This document shows positions 2,317 to 20,379 of a stretch of DNA of 20,421 nt, piece by piece. The notes below the pieces were generated by a model. It ran no database searches. It saw only the letters and a list, made by a program, of their open reading frames with translations, and was not told the DNA's origin. Origin of the DNA: a virus; the IMG/VR virus record IMGVR_UViG_3300021425_000240, positions 1 to 20,421 of that record; one strand, 5' to 3'. The translations under genes were made by a program, and so were the position numbers. Position 1 is the first letter of the stretch. The number at the start of each line of letters is the position of its first letter.

Positions 2317-3798
2317 ATGGGAATGTTCGATTTCTGGAAGGCAAAGCCTGAGACCAAGCCGCAAACAATGAAGCGAGCCTATCAGGCAGCGAATACGGGT
2401 CGTTTATTTGCTGATTATCGAGAGTCAGAGCGCAGCGCAGACAGTGAGCTCTACCCGGTTTTATCGAGAATGCGCGCTCGATCTCGCGATCTCGCCAGGA
2501 ATAATGAATATGCAAAGCGTTATTTGACGCTATTAAAAACAAACACGATCGGTCAGCACGGCATCAAACTCCAGGTCAAAGCGCTCGATCCGGCGGGATC
2601 GCTCGACCAGGACGGCAACACGGCTGTCGAATCGTCATTTAAAGTCTGGGGGCGCTCCGGTAATTGCACGGCGGACGGCAAAATGAGCTGGATCGACGTG
2701 CAGAAGATGGTTATCGAGAGCCTGGCGCGTGATGGTGAGGTTTTCATCATCAAGCATCGAGGGAATAGCTTCCACGATTCGTTTGCGCTTGAGTTTATCG
2801 AGCCCGACCAGGTCGATGAGGAAAAATCAGAGCGATTGTCTAACGGAAACGAGATCAGGATGGGCGTGGAGCTCGACAAGTTCCGAAAGCCAGTCGCTTA
2901 TCATCTGCTGACCTATCATCCCGGCGATTATGATTTCACGACACTAACACGCTCGCCAAAACACCGGCGGATCACTGCCGATCGAGTGATTCATATATTC
3001 CAGCCGCTGCGCCCAGGACAGACTCGAGGCGAACCCTGGATGGCGCCGGCGATGGCATCACTCAAGCAGCTCAACGGCTGGCGAGAGGCATCGATTGTCG
3101 CGGCTCGAATGGGCGCGTCCAAGATGGGTTTTTTTACGAGCCCATCGGGTGATGGGTTTGTGGCAGATGATCTCGATGGTCATGTGCCGATCATTGACGC
3201 GCAGCCTGGGACATTTCACCAGCTGCCGAATGGCGTCGACTTTAAAACCTTCGATCCGCAGTACCCGACGAGCGAATTCGATAGCTTCCATAAATCAGTG
3301 CTCAAGGGTATCGCGTCGGCGCTGAACGTATCCTATACGTCACTCGCAAACGATCTCGAGGCGACATCGTACAGCTCAATCAGGCAGGGCGCGCTCGAGG
3401 AGCGCGACTATTATCGGAACCTGCATCAATTCATGATCGAGCATTTCATTCGCCCGGTGTTCGAGGCTTGGCTCGAGTCGGCGCTCGAGGTCCAGGGTGT
3501 TCGGCTGCCGTTGAGCACCTATCCCAAGTTTAGCGCTGCGGCTGAATTTCGTGGGCGTGCCTGGAATTGGGTCGACCCGCAAAAGGAAATGAACGCTGCG
3601 ATTAATGGCATGAAGGCCGGCGTGCTGAGTCTCCAGGATGTCGCGAGCCAGTACGGAAAGGACACCGAGGAGCTCTTGGCGGAGATTCGCCGCGACAGGG
3701 CGCTCATGGAGCAATTCGACGTTAAATATGCGCTGGAGCCCTACGCTGCCCAGTTTATGCCGGTCAATCCCGAGGTAACGGATAGTGGCGACGTATAA
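2317..3798 (+). CDS. Portal protein, lambda gpB family
   Basis: Dodecameric ring at one head vertex through which terminase packages DNA and to which the connector and tail attach. The 493 residues compare with 533 for lambda gpB. Family blocks visible: A-R-N-N-E-Y-A-K-R-Y-L (60-70), T-N-T-I-G-Q-H-G-I-K-L-Q (75-86), A-R-D-G-E-V-F (138-143), L-E-F-I-E-P-D-Q-V-D (158-167), and D-R-V-I-H-I-F-Q-P-L-R-P-G-Q-T-R-G (222-238), followed by the long stem helix region. The ATG follows the preceding TGA by one base, with gaggtgag (2301-2308) as ribosome binding site. The last 14 bases overlap the GTG-initiated protease-capsid gene, implying translational coupling. Confidence 0.95.
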   Translation: MGMFDFWKAKPETKPQTMKRAYQAANTGRLFADYRESERSADSELYPVLSRMRARSRDLARNNEYAKRYLTLLKTNTIGQHGIKLQVKALDPAGSLDQDGNTAVESSFKVWGRSGNCTADGKMSWIDVQKMVIESLARDGEVFIIKHRGNSFHDSFALEFIEPDQVDEEKSERLSNGNEIRMGVELDKFRKPVAYHLLTYHPGDYDFTTLTRSPKHRRITADRVIHIFQPLRPGQTRGEPWMAPAMASLKQLNGWREASIVAARMGASKMGFFTSPSGDGFVADDLDGHVPIIDAQPGTFHQLPNGVDFKTFDPQYPTSEFDSFHKSVLKGIASALNVSYTSLANDLEATSYSSIRQGALEERDYYRNLHQFMIEHFIRPVFEAWLESALEVQGVRLPLSTYPKFSAAAEFRGRAWNWVDPQKEMNAAINGMKAGVLSLQDVASQYGKDTEELLAEIRRDRALMEQFDVKYALEPYAAQFMPVNPEVTDSGDV

Positions 3799-6511
3799 AG
3801 GCGAAGAAATAAACACAAAACCAACGGAGGCGATGGCAAGTAATGCGAGACGCGGTTTGGAATGGCGTGAAGAATTTGGGCGAGGTGGTACTGAAATTGG
3901 TGTCGCTCGTGCTCGCGACCTGGCTAATCGTCGTGAGCTCAGTATTAATACTGTTCGGCGTATGTTTTCTTACTTTGCTCGACACGCTGTCGATAAGGAA
4001 GCCGAAGGATTCAGCAGCGGAGAGGATGGATTCCCAAGTGCCGGGCGAATCGCCTGGGAGTTATGGGGCGGAGATGCTGGACAGTCATGGACTCGACGAA
4101 TCGTCGAGCGACTTAATTCATTAGACGAGAGAGCCTATATCGATTCGCGTCCCTACCCGAACGAACACGCAGCCAGGATCAGAGATCCCGGCCAATATGA
4201 TGAGTTCCGGCGGGTAAATGATGAACTTGGTGAAGGAATTGATATAATCGTCGGTTATAAGAACGGCGAGACTGAGATCCAGTCGATCCGATTCGATTCT
4301 CGGATGTATTCGGCGGAAGCCGCTCGCGAATGGCTGCGGGAGAACAACTGGGAAGTTTTAAAGTTTGAGGAAGCCATTGAGGAAAAGGCAATGGATACAG
4401 AAAAGCGCGCAGAACCTGGTGAATTATCGATCGGCGATTTTGTCGAGTGGGATTCATCTGGCGGCATGGCTCGCGGAAAAATCGAGCGTATTGAGCGCGA
4501 TGGCGAGATCGATGTTCCAAATACTGATTTCACTGTCACCGGCACAGAGGATGACCCGGCGGCGTTGATACGTATCTATGACAGCGAGGGCAGCGAGAGC
4601 GATGTCCTGGTCGGTCACAAGTTCTCGACTCTGACGAAAATCGATCCAATCCGCGGTGCTCACGATGACGAGCGTCATATTGTAAACGTCACCGAAACCG
4701 AATCGAGCGTCATTGTCGAATTCGAAAAGCATGAAAGCGACTCGGACGAAGAGCGCAAGGGGGTTGCCCAGGTAACCCACCGGGCGATGGAAATGGATGC
4801 CAGGGCGGTCGACGAGGAATCGCGTCGGGTTCGCATGGCGGTCAGCTCCGAAGAGCCCGTGCAGCGCTCTTTCGGCATGGAAGTATTAGAACACTCAGAG
4901 GAAGCTATCGACCTTAGTTTCCTCAACAGCGGTCGCGCTCCGCTGCTCTTGGATCACGATCCAGAGCGACAAATTGGCGTAGTTGAATCTGTCGAACTCG
5001 ACGGCTCGGCTCGGCGGCTCCGGGCGACGGTGCGTTTTGGGAAAGGCGCATTGGCTAGAGAGGCTTTCGACGATGTGGTGGATGGAATCAAGGCTAACGT
5101 GTCCATTGGTTACGCCATCAACAAGCTGGAGCGCAAGGATAAAGAGACATATGTCGCTAAATCCTGGCGTCCCGTAGAGGCATCGCTCGTATCAATCCCG
5201 GCTGATTCATCGGTCGGAGTAGGGCGCTCTGCTTCATTAAACCCCGTGATCAAAACTGACTTTAAGGAGACATTACCCATGTCAGAATCTATTGATATCG
5301 CGGCAGTCGAAGCAGATGCTCGGAAAGCCGCCCAAAAGAACGCCGCTCAAATTGTTGAGTTAGGCGCACGTCACAACAAATCGGATCTCGCGCAGCGCGC
5401 GATCTCGGAAGGCAAGTCGATCGAAGAATTTCGCGGCGAGCTGCTCGAGGTGATCGGATCTGATCGTGCATTGGAAAGCCAGGATATTGGCATGAACAAA
5501 AAAGAAACCGAGCGTTTCTCTCTTGTTCGCGCTGTCAATGCTCTCGCAAACCCAACCGATCGACGAGCTCAGGAAGCCGCTGCATTCGAATTCGAGTGCT
5601 CTCGTGCTGCCGCTGATCAGTATGGCAAAACCGCCCAGGGCATCATGCTCCCGGCTGAGGTTATGCGAAACTGGAAGCGCGACCTGAACTCTGCTGATGA
5701 GTTCGAGTTGTTCACCGATGATTTTCGTGGCGGTGAGTTTATCGATGTCCTTCGCAATGCATCATCAGTGATGCAGGCCGGCGCTCGTATGCTTGGCGGT
5801 CTTTCTGGCGATGTAAAAATCCCACGTAAAGATTCGGCAGCGGTTGCGGGTTGGATTGCTACCGAAGGCGGTGCATCTAGCGAGTCAGAAATGACTGTCG
5901 GACAAGTCTCGATGACTCCCAAGACACTCGGCGCTCACACTGATGTGACCCGTCAACTCTTGATCCAATCATCATTGGATGTCGAGGCGCTAATGCGTGA
6001 CGACCTGGCGCAGTCAATCGCTCTGGCGATCGACCTGGCTGGTCTCGAGGGCTCTGGTTCAAGCGGTCAGCCTACTGGTATTTTGAATACCTCGGGCGTG
6101 AACACCGTGACAGCATTCGCAGCTGCTAACCCAACATTCGCAGAGGTGGTAACACTCGAGACGGCTGTTGCGGAAGATAATGCTCTGATGGGTAGCCTGG
6201 CATACATCATGCCCGCGGCTATGCATGGCGCGTTAAAGACGACTGAAAAGGCGTCGGGCACTGCTCAGTTTGTTGTCGAGCCTGGTGGCACTGTCAACGG
6301 CTATCGTGCAATCGTTTCGAACCAGGGAACCGCCGGTAACCTGTATTTCGGAAACTTCAACGATCTGTTGATCGGTATGTTTGGCGGCCTCGATATTGTT
6401 GTCGATCCGTACACAAACAGCACCAGCGGCACCGTTCGAGTTGTTGCGTTGCAGTCTGTTGACGTCGCTGTACGTCACGCTGTTAGTTTCGCATTCGGTA
6501 ACGATGGCTAA
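3785..6511 (+). CDS. Five-module fusion: accessory domains, HK97-type prohead protease and major capsid protein
   Basis: One uninterrupted 908-codon frame. Residues about 12-105: phage accessory domain (K-P-T-E-A-M, then G-G-T-x-x-G-V-A-R-A-R-D, and I-A-W-E-L-W-G-G-D-A-G). Residues 141-197: small domain ending F-D-S-R-M-Y-S-A-E-A-A-R-E-W-L, like XkdF-type protease flanks. Residues 213-287: Tudor-like DUF2945/HVA1-type domain (G-D-F-V-E-W-D-S-S-G-G, then T-E-D-D-P-A-A-L-I-R, then V-G-H-K-F-S-T-L). Residues 330-485: protease with His391 (L-L-L-D-H-D-P-E), Ser440 (A-N-V-S-I-G-Y) and the E465-A-S-L-V-S-I-P-A strand. From 499: scaffold/delta region, then an HK97-fold capsid protein including G-S-S-G-Q-P-T-G-I-L. 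The protease should cleave scaffold from shell. The GTG start is chosen because the first domain needs K-P-T at 12-14 and gaggt lies 8 bases upstream. The later ATG at 3833 has a badly spaced ribosome site. Confidence 0.92.
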   Translation: MATYKGEEINTKPTEAMASNARRGLEWREEFGRGGTEIGVARARDLANRRELSINTVRRMFSYFARHAVDKEAEGFSSGEDGFPSAGRIAWELWGGDAGQSWTRRIVERLNSLDERAYIDSRPYPNEHAARIRDPGQYDEFRRVNDELGEGIDIIVGYKNGETEIQSIRFDSRMYSAEAAREWLRENNWEVLKFEEAIEEKAMDTEKRAEPGELSIGDFVEWDSSGGMARGKIERIERDGEIDVPNTDFTVTGTEDDPAALIRIYDSEGSESDVLVGHKFSTLTKIDPIRGAHDDERHIVNVTETESSVIVEFEKHESDSDEERKGVAQVTHRAMEMDARAVDEESRRVRMAVSSEEPVQRSFGMEVLEHSEEAIDLSFLNSGRAPLLLDHDPERQIGVVESVELDGSARRLRATVRFGKGALAREAFDDVVDGIKANVSIGYAINKLERKDKETYVAKSWRPVEASLVSIPADSSVGVGRSASLNPVIKTDFKETLPMSESIDIAAVEADARKAAQKNAAQIVELGARHNKSDLAQRAISEGKSIEEFRGELLEVIGSDRALESQDIGMNKKETERFSLVRAVNALANPTDRRAQEAAAFEFECSRAAADQYGKTAQGIMLPAEVMRNWKRDLNSADEFELFTDDFRGGEFIDVLRNASSVMQAGARMLGGLSGDVKIPRKDSAAVAGWIATEGGASSESEMTVGQVSMTPKTLGAHTDVTRQLLIQSSLDVEALMRDDLAQSIALAIDLAGLEGSGSSGQPTGILNTSGVNTVTAFAAANPTFAEVVTLETAVAEDNALMGSLAYIMPAAMHGALKTTEKASGTAQFVVEPGGTVNGYRAIVSNQGTAGNLYFGNFNDLLIGMFGGLDIVVDPYTNSTSGTVRVVALQSVDVAVRHAVSFAFGNDG
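5264..5281 (+). promoter_or_regulatory. Internal ribosome binding site and ATG for a separate scaffold-capsid product
   Basis: The sequence aaggaga (5264-5270) lies 8 bases before an in-frame ATG (5279-5281, residue 499 of the fusion). This is the best Shine-Dalgarno in the gene, and it falls exactly at the protease/capsid boundary. Initiation here would make a 410-residue scaffold-capsid protein ending at 6511. This resembles the nested Nu3 scaffold start inside lambda C, but here it would yield the shell protein itself. Use of the site is inferred, not shown. Confidence 0.75.
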
Positions 6512-11605: not shown

Positions 11606-12055
11606 ATGAAATTTGCTCATGAAAATCTCACTAATGTTAAACAGGATATATTGCCGCTGCTCGATGAGCATTGGCGGGAAATCGCTCTCAACCAGGACGT
11701 TATAAAGCTAAATCCTGACTGGGAAGCCTACGCTGCGCTCGATGCCGCTGGTCGGCTGCGCGTTTACACTGCTCGAGAGAATGGCGAGCTGCTCGGCTAT
11801 TTTGTTCTGATTGTGGCGCCTTCCCTGCATTACAAGGATCATATTTTCGCGAACAACGACATCATATTTTTGCGTGCTGACGTGCGCGAGGGATTCACTG
11901 GGATTAAGCTGATAAAATATGCGGTCGAGTGTTTAGAACGCGAAGGCGTTCGACAGATTAACATTAATACGAAAGTGCATCAGCCGTTCGATAAAATCTT
12001 GGAGCGCCAGGGCTTTGAGAATATCGAGCGCGTATATTCAAAGTGTATGAGGTGA
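11606..12055 (+). CDS. GNAT-type acetyltransferase encoded in the tail-tip operon
   Basis: 149 residues with the GNAT layout: N-terminal helices (I-L-P-L-L-D-E-H-W-R-E-I-A), strands 2-3 (L-R-V-Y-T-A-R, then G-E-L-L-G-Y-F-V-L-I-V), the motif A strand (N-N-D-I-I-F-L-R-A-D-V) and following helix, then I-N-I-N-T-K-V-H and F-D-K-I-L-E-R-Q-G-F-E. The pyrophosphate loop is V93-R-E-G-F-T-G99, which departs from the usual Q/R-x-x-G-x-G/A, so acetyl-CoA binding should be checked. I recall similar proteins from other phage tail operons at this position. Substrate unknown. gagagg (11595-11600) sits 5 bases upstream of the ATG. It could modify a tail protein or a host target; nothing here decides. Confidence 0.85.
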   Translation: MKFAHENLTNVKQDILPLLDEHWREIALNQDVIKLNPDWEAYAALDAAGRLRVYTARENGELLGYFVLIVAPSLHYKDHIFANNDIIFLRADVREGFTGIKLIKYAVECLEREGVRQININTKVHQPFDKILERQGFENIERVYSKCMR

Positions 12056-15232: not shown

Positions 15233-15550
15233 ATGGCAACGATAACTCACAAACAGGGCGACACGCTTGAGTGGGTTATTTCGCTCACTGAGGGCGGCTC
15301 TGCCGTGGATATCTCTAACTGGAGTATCCGAGCGCAGATTCGTCAGAACGACACACTGATTGCGACGTTGAGCGTGACTGTCACTAACGCGAGTGGCGGT
15401 GTATTCAGTTTAACAGCATCAAAGACGGCGACAGATAGCTGGGCTGCTGGAACGCATTCCTGCGACATTGAGTTCACTGATGACAATACGGAAGTGTTCT
15501 CTACAGAGACTTTCTCAGTGACGATCATCGAGGATATCTCGCATGATTAA
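15233..15550 (+). CDS. Small Ig-like (BppU_N-type) structural protein
   Basis: 105 residues and almost entirely beta: T-H-K-Q-G-D-T-L-E-W-V-I-S-L-T, then V-D-I-S-N-W-S-I-R-A-Q-I-R, then F-S-L-T-A-S-K-T-A-T-D-S-W-A-A-G-T-H-S-C-D-I-E-F, ending in E-T-F-S-V-T-I-I-E-D-I. This is the pattern of the Ig-like domain at the N-terminus of siphophage upper baseplate proteins, here as a free-standing gene. It resembles residues 1-120 of the gpW-like protein at 1722. It probably acts as a structural adaptor near the fibers. Its start lies 3 bases after the previous stop with little Shine-Dalgarno, so it is likely translated by coupling. Confidence 0.72.
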   Translation: MATITHKQGDTLEWVISLTEGGSAVDISNWSIRAQIRQNDTLIATLSVTVTNASGGVFSLTASKTATDSWAAGTHSCDIEFTDDNTEVFSTETFSVTIIEDISHD

Positions 15551-15734: not shown

Positions 15735-18514
15735 TGGCTGTCAATATCGGTATTAACATTCAGCGAAGTCCTAACCGTATCAGTCAAGAGCTTAGAGACG
15801 CTGCGGTGCTGGGCAAGTTCCCCAAGCTATTCTTAGACTTCAAAGATGAGTATTACCTAGCCAACGGCGGCAGTAAGACATTCGCTAATGCAGTCACCCA
15901 CGCCCGTGCTGGCAATGCCACTATGACTGACGGCTATGGGCCTGAGCTTGTGACTAATGGCTCATTCGACAGCGGCATAGACAACTGGACAGCAATTAAC
16001 GCGACACTTAGCCATGTCAAATTTGCAGGCAGAGATAATGTTATTTCGGTAGCAGATAATGGCGGTTTTTCACAGGCGGCACAAACCATAACCACAGTCG
16101 CAGGTAAAACCTATTTATTTTCGGTGAAAGTAAATAACAACAATATAAACGACAACGGCACTTTGCAGGTTTTTGACGGAGCGGCATCGGCTGGAAATGG
16201 TGATATTGTTGTCTACACAGATGCGGAGCCACCACAATCATCTGCTTGGCAAACTTTTGAAATTGCTTTCGTCGCAACGAGTTCAAGCACGTCAATTACG
16301 CTAGGTTCTAATTCTGCTAACACTGCTTACTTTGACAACGTAAGCGTCCGAGAGATGCCTGTCATCAAATGGGCACCGCATAATCTCTGCCGAAACAGTG
16401 AGGATGCCACTCAGTCCAACTTTTTTAAGAGCAATGTAACAGTAACGTCGGCTAGTAGTGTGACGGCACCAAACGGCACAACAGGAGTAAGTCAATATGC
16501 TTTTGCTGGCGCGGCTTCAGATAACGTCTATATCACTGATGGCGGTTCAGATATTCGTGGTGGTGTTACAGGCACCTTTGCCGTGTTTGCCAAAGCAGTA
16601 TCAAGTGCTACGACTATTAGAATGCGTATTTGGGACAACGGCACGACAGGCGCACAATATGTAGATAAGTCTGTAAGCGCAGATGATTGGACGCTGTTAA
16701 CTCACGAAGCAACAACTTCTTCAAACTCTACGACAGCCAACTTTGCAATTTACAACAATTCATCTGGTGATGCGTCTGATATTTACGTTTGGGGGTTCCA
16801 CATTTTCCGCTCTGACTTAGGCGGCATGGTAGACAACCCTGATCAGCCATCCTCAAGAGCGTCATACGTCCCTACAACGTCAGCGGCTAAGTATCTTCCA
16901 CGAATAGGCCACCACGTCTACAACGGCTCTGCATGGGTTAACGAGGGCGTACTGGCTGAGTCTGAGGCTAGGACTAATCTTTTTCATTATTCGCATGACT
17001 TTAGTAATTCTTACTGGGCTAAGTCGGAACTCACTGCCACAGCAAATGAAGGTGTTGCCCCTGATGGAACCGACACGGCTTTTAAGCTGGTTGAAAGCAG
17101 TACGTCTAGCACATCGAGACACGTCACACGCGGCGGCGGTACGTTAGCTAACTCAACCGAATACACAGCGGCGGTTTACTTAAAGAAAGGCACAAGAACA
17201 AAAGCCAAGATTAACGTATTTACTGGGGCGGCTAGTCACACGGGCAAGTACGACATTGAAAATGGCACAGTAGAGTCTAGTGCTGGCGCTGACGCGGCGA
17301 CTATTGAGGACGTTGGTAACGGTTGGTTCAGATGCAGTATCACGACAACAACTGCTTCAACTGGAAACCCTAATATTGCTTTCGGTATGTTGCCTGATGA
17401 TTATAGTGTGACATACGACGGTGACGGCTCATCTTACATTTACGCATGGGGCGCTACACTAGAGGCATCGCCAACACGCTCAAGTTATATACCGACAGTC
17501 GGAGCGGCCACAGTAACCAGAGCGGCAGAAACCTTCACTATCCCATCAGCTAACCTACCGTGGCCTACGCCGCAGTACATTGGCTCTGAGTTGGTGACTA
17601 ATGGGACGTTCGACACAGACACTACAGGCTGGACAGGAGCTTTGGGCGCTACGTTGAGCATCGTTAGTGGTGCTTTGCGGGTAACAGAGGACGGTTCAGA
17701 TGGATCTACTTCGAGAGCCTATCAAGCGATTACAACAGAAGTTGGCAAAGTTTATCGCGTCTCTGTTGATTACGTAGGCGGCACAGGAGGCTCTGGTGAA
17801 GTTTATATAAACACCAGTACTAACTTCGGCGGTGCTATTGTCTCTGATACTACGATAGTTGCTGGCACAACCTCTACGCTTTCGTTTGTGGCTACGGCAA
17901 CAACAACCTATATATTATTAGGTGCTGGCCCTGCTTCTGAGTATAACGACTACGACAACGTCAGCGTCCGCGAGATTAACCCCCTGTCTGTCTCTATCGG
18001 CATGGAAGGTAGGGTGACTTATGCTGATGACGGTGCGACGGTTTCTTCTAATGCGGCATCTGGTACTGCATTGCCGTTCAGATGGAGGGCAGGTGGTTTA
18101 AATTATATTACACACGTTTTATCAACAGAAACCACGAACGTAGGCACAATATGGTTTATGCAGGAAGACGGAGGGACGTTTGATTATGTTCTTGCTACGG
18201 ATGAATACTCCCCAGACATCCTAGTCCCATTTAACGTCGCTAGTCGCCACGGCTCTACGTTCATCAACGGCGCAGTAGACGGTGTAGCACTAACAGCCGA
18301 CACAACCCCTACGGCTCTCCCTGATCTCTCTAGCACTGACTTAGAGCTAGCCTATGACTACATGGGAACAGTCTCAGAATTCCGTGTATGGGACAAAGAC
18401 ATTACTGATGCTGGGCTTGTCGAAGCAACCAATCCTGAATTAGAGCCATCCCTGTCGTTAGAATTCTCAGGCAGCGGTACAAACAGCTACGTTATTAATG
18501 ACTGGAGTGAGTAA
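15734..18514 (+). CDS. Large modular fiber protein 1
   Basis: 926 residues, Ser/Thr/Gly-rich. Order of modules: N-terminal segment (F-P-K-L-F-L-D-F-K-D-E-Y-Y-L, then A-R-A-G-N-A-T) typical of phage spike or fiber proteins; carbohydrate-binding-like module A (71-207, E-L-V-T-N-G-S-F-D to D-N-V-S-V-R-E); module B (217-381, head-spike-fiber type); a second B copy (414-588, T-N-L-F-H-Y-S-H-D-F-S-N-S-Y-W to S-Y-I-P-T); linker with L-P-W-P-T-P-Q-Y-I-G; a second A copy (619-747); and a C-terminal concanavalin/LamG-like domain (S-R-H-G-S-T-F-I-N-G-A-V-D-G). It likely binds surface glycans of the host. No catalytic motif or peptidase chaperone is seen. The stop overlaps the next start as TAATG. Confidence 0.88.
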   Translation: MAVNIGINIQRSPNRISQELRDAAVLGKFPKLFLDFKDEYYLANGGSKTFANAVTHARAGNATMTDGYGPELVTNGSFDSGIDNWTAINATLSHVKFAGRDNVISVADNGGFSQAAQTITTVAGKTYLFSVKVNNNNINDNGTLQVFDGAASAGNGDIVVYTDAEPPQSSAWQTFEIAFVATSSSTSITLGSNSANTAYFDNVSVREMPVIKWAPHNLCRNSEDATQSNFFKSNVTVTSASSVTAPNGTTGVSQYAFAGAASDNVYITDGGSDIRGGVTGTFAVFAKAVSSATTIRMRIWDNGTTGAQYVDKSVSADDWTLLTHEATTSSNSTTANFAIYNNSSGDASDIYVWGFHIFRSDLGGMVDNPDQPSSRASYVPTTSAAKYLPRIGHHVYNGSAWVNEGVLAESEARTNLFHYSHDFSNSYWAKSELTATANEGVAPDGTDTAFKLVESSTSSTSRHVTRGGGTLANSTEYTAAVYLKKGTRTKAKINVFTGAASHTGKYDIENGTVESSAGADAATIEDVGNGWFRCSITTTTASTGNPNIAFGMLPDDYSVTYDGDGSSYIYAWGATLEASPTRSSYIPTVGAATVTRAAETFTIPSANLPWPTPQYIGSELVTNGTFDTDTTGWTGALGATLSIVSGALRVTEDGSDGSTSRAYQAITTEVGKVYRVSVDYVGGTGGSGEVYINTSTNFGGAIVSDTTIVAGTTSTLSFVATATTTYILLGAGPASEYNDYDNVSVREINPLSVSIGMEGRVTYADDGATVSSNAASGTALPFRWRAGGLNYITHVLSTETTNVGTIWFMQEDGGTFDYVLATDEYSPDILVPFNVASRHGSTFINGAVDGVALTADTTPTALPDLSSTDLELAYDYMGTVSEFRVWDKDITDAGLVEATNPELEPSLSLEFSGSGTNSYVINDWSE
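15944..16354 (+). repeat. Fiber module A, copy 1
   Basis: Codons 71-207 of fiber 1, from E-L-V-T-N-G-S-F-D to D-N-V-S-V-R-E, a CBM_4_9-like jelly-roll layout with T-T-V-A-G-K-T-Y near the middle. The same border motifs recur at 17588 and 18607. Confidence 0.85.
16382..16876 (+). repeat. Fiber module B, copy 1
   Basis: Codons 217-381 of fiber 1: N-L-C-R-N-S-E-D, then A-P-N-G-T-T-G-V, then Y-V-W-G-F-H-I, ending S-Y-V-P-T. It is the most diverged of the three B copies. Confidence 0.75.
16973..17497 (+). repeat. Fiber module B, copy 2
   Basis: Codons 414-588 of fiber 1: T-N-L-F-H-Y-S-H-D-F-S-N-S-Y-W, then A-P-D-G-T-D-T-A, V-G-N-G-W-F-R-C-S, I-Y-A-W-G-A-T-L-E-A and S-Y-I-P-T. This is the closest of the three to the family pattern I know as the phage head spike fiber domain. 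Confidence 0.82.
17588..17974 (+). repeat. Fiber module A, copy 2
   Basis: Codons 619-747 of fiber 1: E-L-V-T-N-G-T-F-D-T to D-N-V-S-V-R-E, with T-T-E-V-G-K-V-Y in the middle. At DNA level the last 20 bases (gacaacgtcagcgtccgcga, 17954-17973) differ from copy 1 at only two positions. Confidence 0.85.
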
Positions 18515-20379
18515 TGGGAACAAAGACGTATAACAACTACCAGGATTTAATTACATTCAGTCGAGCTAGTTCAGGCTATGCGCTGCGCCCTGTTACCTAT
18601 GGTAGTGAGCTTGTAACTAATGGAACTTTTGATAGTGATGTCACTAGCTGGCCTGTCAGCAGCGGCACATTCGTAACTGATAACTCTGATCCATACGAAG
18701 GCGATAATTCCGCTCTTTTAACGGCGAGCGCAGGCGCAGGGCGAGCAGTGCAAAATCTTACGACTGAAGTAGGTAAGCTCTATCATTTATCTTGCTTTGT
18801 GAAATACAACAGCGGTGACTCTGGCTCTGTCGAGATCTTTGAGGTAGTAGAAAATAATTCTAAAACACTCGTTACTAGCAGTGATACGGATTGGAGGCAA
18901 CTTAGCTATAACTTTGTTGCAACTTCTACCACAAGCCAAATACGAATTCGAGAAAGAGGAGTGAACGACAACGCTTCGTTTTTTATAGATAACGTATCCG
19001 TCAAAGAAGTCACCTTTGATGAAGTAGGCGGGAGACTAACCTTATTCGAGCATCCAAATAATATCCCGCGCATCGAGTATGCCCTGAACGATAGTAAAGA
19101 GCGTTTTGAAGGCATCGACGATCAGATATTGAAAGCAGTAGTAGGCACAGAGCCACAAGCGACAGAATTTGATGTTCTTGTGAATGGCCAAAAAATTGGC
19201 GACATTACAAACAACGGTGATGTTAGCGCGTTTGATGCGAGCCAATACCTTAGTTGGCTTACTGGTACTCTAACTAATCAAACCTACATTGATTACATCG
19301 AAGACGTTCTGAATCCCTACATCGAAGCTAATCTCGATAAATACATTCTGCCCTATCCCGAGGGTGTAGACAGGCGCGGGCTTCTTATTGAGGGAGCTAA
19401 AACCAATTTAATTGCTAATAGCGATTTCGATGCTGGTGTTTCTCAGTCTGCCGTAACAATTACACCTCGTGCATCAGAAAGCCCAGATGGTTTACAAAAC
19501 GCAACGAGTTTAAATATCACATCAAGCGGTGCTTTTGCTTACTTTACTGTCAGTGTAACTGCTGGAACTGAGTACACTTGGAGTTGGTTCGCTAAGTTGG
19601 GAACCGCCACGGCTCATGTCTACGCTGTATACGATGTGACAAATGCCGCATTTGTTTCAAGAGATCAATATACGCTCACCAACGGCGAAAACTATGGTAG
19701 AGGCTGGTATCGACACTCTGAAACATTCACTGCGCCTAGTGGATGCACAGAGGTTCGCGTTTATGCGGTAAGAGCAACAGATGACAACGGCGGTGTAGCT
19801 GGAGCGCAGGGAACGACGTTTGTCTGGGGAGGTCAGGTTGAGGCCGCTGGCTTTGCGTCATCGATAATTAGGACTACAGGAAGCTCGGCAACACGCTCTG
19901 CTGATGTTCCAACTATTAACACAAGCGAGTTTGGATTTAACGCTAAAAACTTCACAGTGCTTTGCGAATGGGACACCATTATTCCAGCTCCTGTGCAATG
20001 GGATAGCTTTAACAGAATTGTGGGTATTAGCGATGCAGGCGGCACAGAAAATGTATCTCTAATTGGTAGTCAAGGAAATGCCTCTGTTTACGGCGTAGTT
20101 TATGCAGATGGTGCGCATCAATTATCATATTTCGCATTCCAAACAGACGGCAATCCAGAAAAAACAGCTTTTAGAGTCGGTACGGATACTTTTTTGATAG
20201 CAAATGATGGAACGCTGCTAACAGAAGACACGAGCGTTAATATGCCTACCTTGCTAGATCGCATGGGTATCGGCATAAATGGCGGAAACCTAACTCAACA
20301 CCTTAATGGCTATTTAAAATCAATCAAATACTACCCACGTCGCCTGACTAACGCACAACTACAGGACATCACATCATGA
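18514..20379 (+). CDS. Large modular fiber protein 2 with dockerin-like insertion
   Basis: 621 residues and a shorter relative of fiber 1. Order: short start with I-T-F-S-R-A-S-S-G-Y; carbohydrate-binding-like module A (32-165); linker E-V-G-G-R-L, then N-N-I-P-R-I-E-Y; an inserted segment (190-283) with a dockerin-like calcium loop D230-I-T-N-N-G-D-V-S-A-F-D241 and following helix; then R-R-G-L-L-I-E-G-A-K-T-N-L, the usual lead-in to module B (297-455); then R-S-A-D-V and a C-terminal concanavalin/LamG-like domain (D-R-M-G-I-G-I-N-G-G, then S-I-K-Y-Y-P-R-R-L-T-N-A-Q-L). It likely acts in glycan or surface binding beside fiber 1. The stop overlaps the following start (ATGA). Confidence 0.87.
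   Translation: MGTKTYNNYQDLITFSRASSGYALRPVTYGSELVTNGTFDSDVTSWPVSSGTFVTDNSDPYEGDNSALLTASAGAGRAVQNLTTEVGKLYHLSCFVKYNSGDSGSVEIFEVVENNSKTLVTSSDTDWRQLSYNFVATSTTSQIRIRERGVNDNASFFIDNVSVKEVTFDEVGGRLTLFEHPNNIPRIEYALNDSKERFEGIDDQILKAVVGTEPQATEFDVLVNGQKIGDITNNGDVSAFDASQYLSWLTGTLTNQTYIDYIEDVLNPYIEANLDKYILPYPEGVDRRGLLIEGAKTNLIANSDFDAGVSQSAVTITPRASESPDGLQNATSLNITSSGAFAYFTVSVTAGTEYTWSWFAKLGTATAHVYAVYDVTNAAFVSRDQYTLTNGENYGRGWYRHSETFTAPSGCTEVRVYAVRATDDNGGVAGAQGTTFVWGGQVEAAGFASSIIRTTGSSATRSADVPTINTSEFGFNAKNFTVLCEWDTIIPAPVQWDSFNRIVGISDAGGTENVSLIGSQGNASVYGVVYADGAHQLSYFAFQTDGNPEKTAFRVGTDTFLIANDGTLLTEDTSVNMPTLLDRMGIGINGGNLTQHLNGYLKSIKYYPRRLTNAQLQDITS
18607..19008 (+). repeat. Fiber module A, copy 3
   Basis: Codons 32-165 of fiber 2: E-L-V-T-N-G-T-F-D-S to D-N-V-S-V-K-E, with T-T-E-V-G-K-L-Y in the middle. 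It is closer to copy 2 than to copy 1 at the centre motif. Confidence 0.83.
19402..19878 (+). repeat. Fiber module B, copy 3
   Basis: Codons 297-455 of fiber 2: T-N-L-I-A-N-S-D-F-D, then S-P-D-G-L-Q-N-A, G-R-G-W-Y-R-H-S, F-V-W-G-G-Q-V-E-A and S-S-I-I-R-T-T. Confidence 0.78.

Follow-up and report, generated by a model that had tools for sequence, protein, structure and literature searches.

A single marine-phage gene in the IMG/VR virus record analysed here (20,421 nucleotides, 20.4 kb; hereafter the window) encodes, on one uninterrupted frame, four N-terminal accessory cassettes (A-B-C-D), an S78 prohead protease, a delta-type scaffold and an HK97-fold shell (3785..6511, + strand, as for all features given below; 908 aa, 99 kDa). 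To judge from comparison with related sequences, the protease/scaffold boundary carries a conserved internal translation initiation region, and the N-terminal domains are swappable cassettes. The gene is therefore likely to give rise to two nested in-frame products, namely an abundant scaffold-shell protein (residues 499-908) and a rarer full-length protein that would load the protease and the cassettes.

The fusion frame runs from GTG 3785 to the stop at 6511 over 908 codons in the ORF reading of the window. Its start, which overlaps the 3' end of a lambda-type portal gene, is served by an SD-like GAGGT (3772..3776). The genes of the window are arranged in the order large terminase, head-tail joining protein, portal, fusion, head closure, tail terminator, tail tube, chaperone, tape measure and tail proteins. 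Tail-region genes at 18514-20379 and 15233-15550, in which a carbohydrate-binding module (PF02018) and a BppU N-terminal domain are found, probably encode receptor-binding parts, and a small gene in the same region (11606-12055) matches the acetyltransferase PHROG phrog_1249, the gene at that position in CRP-821 and CRP-823 being annotated as DUF6950.

Protease-capsid fusions are already known and are represented by PHROG 617 and NCBIfam NF045541. PHROG 617 ('major head protein', protease-capsid fusion) spans residues 330-906 of the window protein (E 5e-148), and the Pfam families Peptidase_S78 and Phage_capsid are found at 373-476 (E 5e-5) and 651-906 (E 1e-42), respectively. The prohead protease core (4901..5212, residues 373-476) has its catalytic His391 and Ser440 exactly where the preliminary description of this DNA had placed them; across 48 homologues, neither these two residues nor Glu465 varies. 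With protease and HK97-fold shell in a single frame and the S78 catalytic His and Ser retained, the protein fits the PHROG 617 family, while its score for NF045541 (prohead protease/major capsid fusion) is 141.9 bits over residues 342-601 only, below the curated 525 bits. The delta-type scaffold (5279..5698, about residues 499-638) would be expected to be removed on maturation, leaving a mature shell protein of 28 kDa (5699..6508, about residues 639-908). This boundary was mapped from the capsid of R4C, which has the same protease-scaffold-shell frame without cassettes: its solved shell chain (8GTA) comprises residues 362-629 of 629, and residue 362 maps to about 639 of the window protein, although the first modelled residue need not be the cleavage site. 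The R4C head contains 415 shell copies in a T=7 lattice (PMC10276861). In HK97 gp4/gp5, a delta-type scaffold is likewise fused to the shell and processed by an S78-type protease, and residues 499-908 match that layout; however, the HK97 protease is a separate gene, and its scaffold domain has 103 residues (PMC10275583) against about 140 in the window.

When all in-frame ATGs of the gene were scored for an upstream Shine-Dalgarno (SD) sequence, Met499 (ATG 5279) was the strongest. Its SD, TAAGGAG (5263..5269), lies 9 nt before the ATG, which sits exactly at the protease/scaffold boundary, within the linker of residues 485-499. The predicted nested product (Met499-908; 5279..6511; 410 aa, 43 kDa) would consist of scaffold and shell without protease. 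An ATG within the 29-codon linker window is present in 107 of the 118 non-redundant fusions, though the linker is otherwise variable, and it is preceded by an SD of at least 4 bases in 91 of these 107 and of at least 5 bases in 68. By comparison, only 4.1% of control windows of equal length (n=1906) contain an ATG whose SD has 5 or more bases. Counted per codon, such SDs accompany 68 of 120 linker ATGs; in the protease (11/416) and in the shell (35/864) they occur at or below the expectation from synonymous shuffles. Amino-acid constraint is not the explanation, because shuffling the linker synonymously yields 35.4 sites against the 68 observed.

The choice of synonymous codons points in the same direction. 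Where Lys-Glu precedes the linker ATG it is encoded by AAGGAG in 27 of 45 cases and never by AAAGAA, whereas elsewhere AAGGAG accounts for 7% and AAAGAA for 50%. With one sequence per cluster, AAGGAG is used in 18/29 cases before the ATG versus 13/224 elsewhere (Fisher p 2.6e-12); this p-value and the one that follows are optimistic even at the cluster level, since the sequences share ancestry. A single codon phase holds for 62 of the 68 SDs, and a few relatives form the SD with other residues or phases (IKGDD, QRSDP). RNA accessibility prediction gave an unpaired value of 0.59 for the start region of the window, a value equalled at 1 of 85 sampled positions, and across 65 clusters the start region was unpaired at 0.52 versus 0.38 at other ATGs (Wilcoxon p 1e-10). 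The same region is 62% AT as against 48% (clusters).

The same SD and ATG at the linker are also found in the cultured relatives CRP-811, CRP-821, CRP-406, R4C and VP882. The cyanophage members S-CBS1, S-CBS3 and S-LBS1 retain the linker ATG but have no SD, and no SD-ATG was found in the linkers of PPpW-3, phiHAP-1 and FoX5. The internal start is thus not universal in the wider family, because several lineages have no SD or no SD-ATG. In relatives with split genes, the shell start adjoins the stop codon of the protease, and its surroundings (KETTM, KEITM) are similar; since the scaffold of these relatives is not alignable, this start is regarded as analogous.

It had been proposed for this gene that each copy of the fusion carries a protease into the prohead, so that stoichiometry must be controlled in another way. 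The second half of that proposal was right, with internal initiation as the probable means of control. The first half is probably wrong: given the conserved ATG and SD in the linker, with accessible RNA and biased synonymous codons around them, a scaffold-shell protein can arise without the protease. According to the mechanism proposed here, most of the ribosomes that make shell would enter at Met499 and produce the 43 kDa scaffold-shell protein, which would build the prohead as HK97 gp5 does. A minority would begin at GTG 3785 and produce the 99 kDa chain, which would co-assemble through its own scaffold-shell part, bringing in a limited dose of protease with the cassettes facing inside. The protease would then sever the scaffold at about residue 639 and would presumably cut off the cassettes and itself as well. 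The cassettes would be exchangeable accessory domains that travel with the protease; their site of action is tentatively placed in the head interior, where they would either take part in assembly around the portal or be co-packaged as cargo.

A precedent is found in phage lambda, where C and Nu3 are nested genes, with an in-frame start inside the protease gene at the protease/scaffold boundary. The C product is the protease and Nu3 is the scaffold (PMC3224144). The window gene resembles this pair in its conserved, predicted in-frame SD-ATG at the same boundary, but the inner start of lambda yields scaffold alone, with the shell encoded by the separate gene E, whereas the predicted inner product of the window would include the shell. 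The gene would therefore work like C/Nu3 without being a member of that system, because its scaffold and shell share one frame. Among known PHROG 617 fusions, those of R4C, RcCronus, KA2-1, VP882 and S-LBS1 likewise follow a lambda-type portal gene and combine S78 protease, scaffold and HK97-fold shell in a single frame; they are without the 330-residue cassette region, and their records mention no internal start. Known relatives that do bear cassettes have the same core with N-terminal cassettes in frame, in sets that differ from that of the window (A-C, A-R-B-D, A-D, A-B), and are annotated merely as major capsid protein. The paper on the CRP-822 family leaves the fusion undiscussed (PMC12629253). 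A literature search in which few subscription journals were covered returned no paper that describes the cassette system or reports that protease-scaffold-shell fusions contain an internal start; this is no proof of novelty.

The N-terminal region had been described as three separable accessory domains, and this holds, as each is found without the others in relatives and structure prediction of residues 6-322 gave a helical domain, a beta-alpha domain and a Tudor barrel. A fourth unit, a short conserved hairpin at residues 295-318, had been missed. Cassette A (KPT...WGGDAG; 3815..4120, residues 11-112) is predicted with confidence to form a six-helix domain (pLDDT 96); it belongs to no Pfam family and corresponds to phrog_2859, which covers residues 11-115. 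An Ala, an Arg-His and a Trp-Gly are invariant among its diverse homologues. Comparison with solved structures gave no match (Foldseek best E 4.2; VIA-align among Foldseek's candidates best Z 4.9), which is not proof of a new fold. Prohead proteases and portals are among the structural relatives of the cassette in viruses. Elsewhere, in phages and in viruses of haloarchaea, cassette A is free-standing between head genes or fused to XkdF-type protease, portal, MuF-type and coiled-coil or scaffold-like proteins. In haloarchaeal tailed viruses it lies within a MuF-type head morphogenesis protein (HRTV-28, L094 4495-4776) and within the portal (HATV-3, L098 5004-5297). In the giant phage PaBG it is free-standing between RNA 2'-phosphotransferase and topoisomerase genes, distant from the head genes (L097 4956-5288).

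Cassette B (RPYPNEHAAR...EAAREWL; 4139..4387, residues 119-201) shows a weak similarity to Pfam BRX. Searched alone against this plant family (PF08381), it scored 23.9 bits (E 2.6e-5), just below the gathering score of 24.5; because of this score and the plant origin of the family, the similarity is only a lead. If real, it would connect a phage head domain with one from plant signalling. Cassette C (4415..4645, residues 211-287) is a Tudor domain, with Pfam Hva1_TUDOR (PF11160) at 217-263 and, for the cassette alone, 28.9 bits against a cut-off of 24.1. Its model aligned with the Tudor folds of SETDB1 and PHF1 at Z 6.6-7.8 over 54-72 residues (rmsd 2.2-2.6). NusG/Spt5, the top Foldseek match of the whole N-terminus (E 1e-3, TM-scores <0.33), was set aside as weak and at least partly driven by the Tudor-like barrel. 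Cassette D is the conserved hairpin RHIVNVTETESSVIVEFEKH (4667..4738, residues 295-318), which is short enough to be missed or overcalled. A further module, R (DUF5824, PF19141), recurs in relatives and is absent in the window. No recognised enzymatic domain was found in any of the cassettes.

A profile of each module was searched against all fetched loci. The five recurring modules (A, R, B, C and D) are combined in 20 architectures among 97 complete non-redundant fusions, and at least 57 architecture changes are required on the tree of the protease-to-shell core, the per-module minima being 13 for A, 10 for R, 22 for B, 19 for C and 13 for D. Long branches (L106, L009, L011 and L205) leave parts of the core tree unsure, but the change count does not depend on them. 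The usual order is A, R, B, C, D. A strictly fixed order, as suggested by 80 loci, was dropped when wider sampling gave the rare permutations A-C-B, A-D-C, A-B-R, C-A-P and P-A (P, protease). The five-domain order of the preliminary description is not a set design but one of at least 20 cassette combinations upon a shared core. In loci whose protease and shell genes are separate, the cassettes remain with the protease (C-A-P, A-P, B-P), so that their partner is the protease and not the shell. In L282, L290, L292, L294 and similar loci, Tudor, KPT and protease domains, in that order, make up one gene (C-A-P), and the shell is encoded separately, a few hundred bases further downstream; the cassettes are therefore older than, or independent of, the shell fusion.

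A third nested product may also exist, although we hold this only tentatively. A further start at the cassette/protease junction (in the window, Met203; in relatives, immediately ahead of hairpin D) would give a protease-scaffold-shell protein without some or all of the cassettes. The candidate site in the window (4379..4393) consists of GAGG at 4379-4382 and, 8 nt downstream, the ATG of Met203 (4391) ahead of the Tudor cassette, in an accessible context (0.53). It makes a weaker case than Met499, its SD being short, and hairpin D of the window has no ATG. In relatives, 29 of the 64 ATGs immediately before hairpin D follow an SD of 5 bases or more, but genuine gene starts account for part of the excess in the cassette region, ORFs being read from stop to stop. 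In L045, cassette A stands in frame upstream of an SD and ATG (AAGGTGATCGC-ATG-SEELK) identical to those of its sister L046, where they form the apparent gene start because this is the only in-frame ATG before the protease; a start codon retained in this way may nevertheless be a relic. These two sister phages (about 20-120 codons into the fusion ORF) provide a natural experiment for start-codon retention.

The data on the cassettes are compatible with a role in assembly as well as with one as cargo. As cargo, the cassettes would enter the head on the protease chain, be cut free and leave it together with the DNA, to act in the newly infected host; host conflict would be the reason for their swapping. 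The high turnover (20 architectures, at least 57 changes) is consistent with this, as are the fusions of cassette A to portal, MuF-type, XkdF protease and scaffold-like proteins, all within the head, and phages do package multidomain effectors in the form of polyvalent proteins (PMC5512222). The cassettes resemble the latter as mix-and-match multidomain chains linked to virion genes, but they are small domains without recognised enzymatic activity, fused to protease and shell, and their delivery is only hypothetical. Assembly roles could produce equal turnover, and the cassette A homologue of PaBG stands free near topoisomerase genes, which speaks against the cargo reading; we consider the cargo role unlikely on present evidence. 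A broader scheme of combinatorial head-loading is similarly speculative. It supposes that the internal start gives the bulk of the shell, and that a rare full-length chain loads the protease and interchangeable domains, which are cut loose inside and maybe ejected into the next host, cassettes being swapped upstream of retained starts while the shell is left untouched.

The two-product model must also be weighed against a pure polyprotein, in which only the full-length chain is made, at about 415 copies per head, the SD-like stretch being a translational pause that aids folding of the protease before the scaffold and the cassettes being stoichiometric core material later destroyed by the protease. 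The frame itself agrees with such a reading. The protease is in the same frame as the capsid in 215/215 informative IMG/VR and phage loci (capsid at least 35% identical to the window), and a conserved stop between residues 485 and 499, proposed earlier as the observation that would speak against a true fusion, was searched for and is absent in these 215 loci. The cyanophage members, moreover, retain the fusion though their linker ATG has no SD. However, a pause requires no ATG, yet 107 of the 118 fusions have one at this place, and the SD-ATG spacing, the AT-rich accessible context and the missing AAAGAA codons suit initiation. From the masses, about 64 kDa of extra domains per subunit would have to fit within the shell if every position held the full chain. 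The pure polyprotein is therefore considered quite improbable.

The open frame claimed in the preliminary description, with accessory domains, protease, scaffold and shell on a single chain, is real. Among loci with a capsid identity of at least 45%, it is intact in 173 of 176, and the remaining three ORFs come from two contigs truncated within the fusion gene (L080, L088), one of which is also frameshifted. One-frame fusions also occur in the cultured, independently sequenced phages CRP-811 (816 aa), CRP-821 (974 aa), CRP-406 (794 aa), S-CBS1 and S-CBS3 (836 aa each). The window is a metagenomic contig, but a sequencing or assembly error that merged two genes can be dismissed with near certainty, because the same frame recurs in these cultured phages, in 173/176 loci and in all 215 informative loci. 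In CRP-823 (L004, 5016-5056), a run of T is one base longer than in CRP-821, and the major capsid protein is annotated as two overlapping CDS as a result; the additional T probably stems from faulty sequencing or assembly, or from a frameshift that arose recently. CRP-823 was rejected as a genuine protease/shell split, as the break falls between cassettes and is due to this extra T.

Protease-capsid fusions are common in aquatic phages and are usually annotated just as 'major capsid protein'. In these phages, a conserved internal start would explain how the dose of protease stays below that of the shell. Full-frame capsid trees and mass predictions should be read with caution, as they mix a conserved core with fast-changing cassettes. 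As the cassette system shows, the inside-facing end of a capsid precursor tolerates frequent domain exchange, and the cassette variants form a natural set for asking what such domains do inside the head. The cassette system may also suggest ways of loading foreign proteins into phage capsids.
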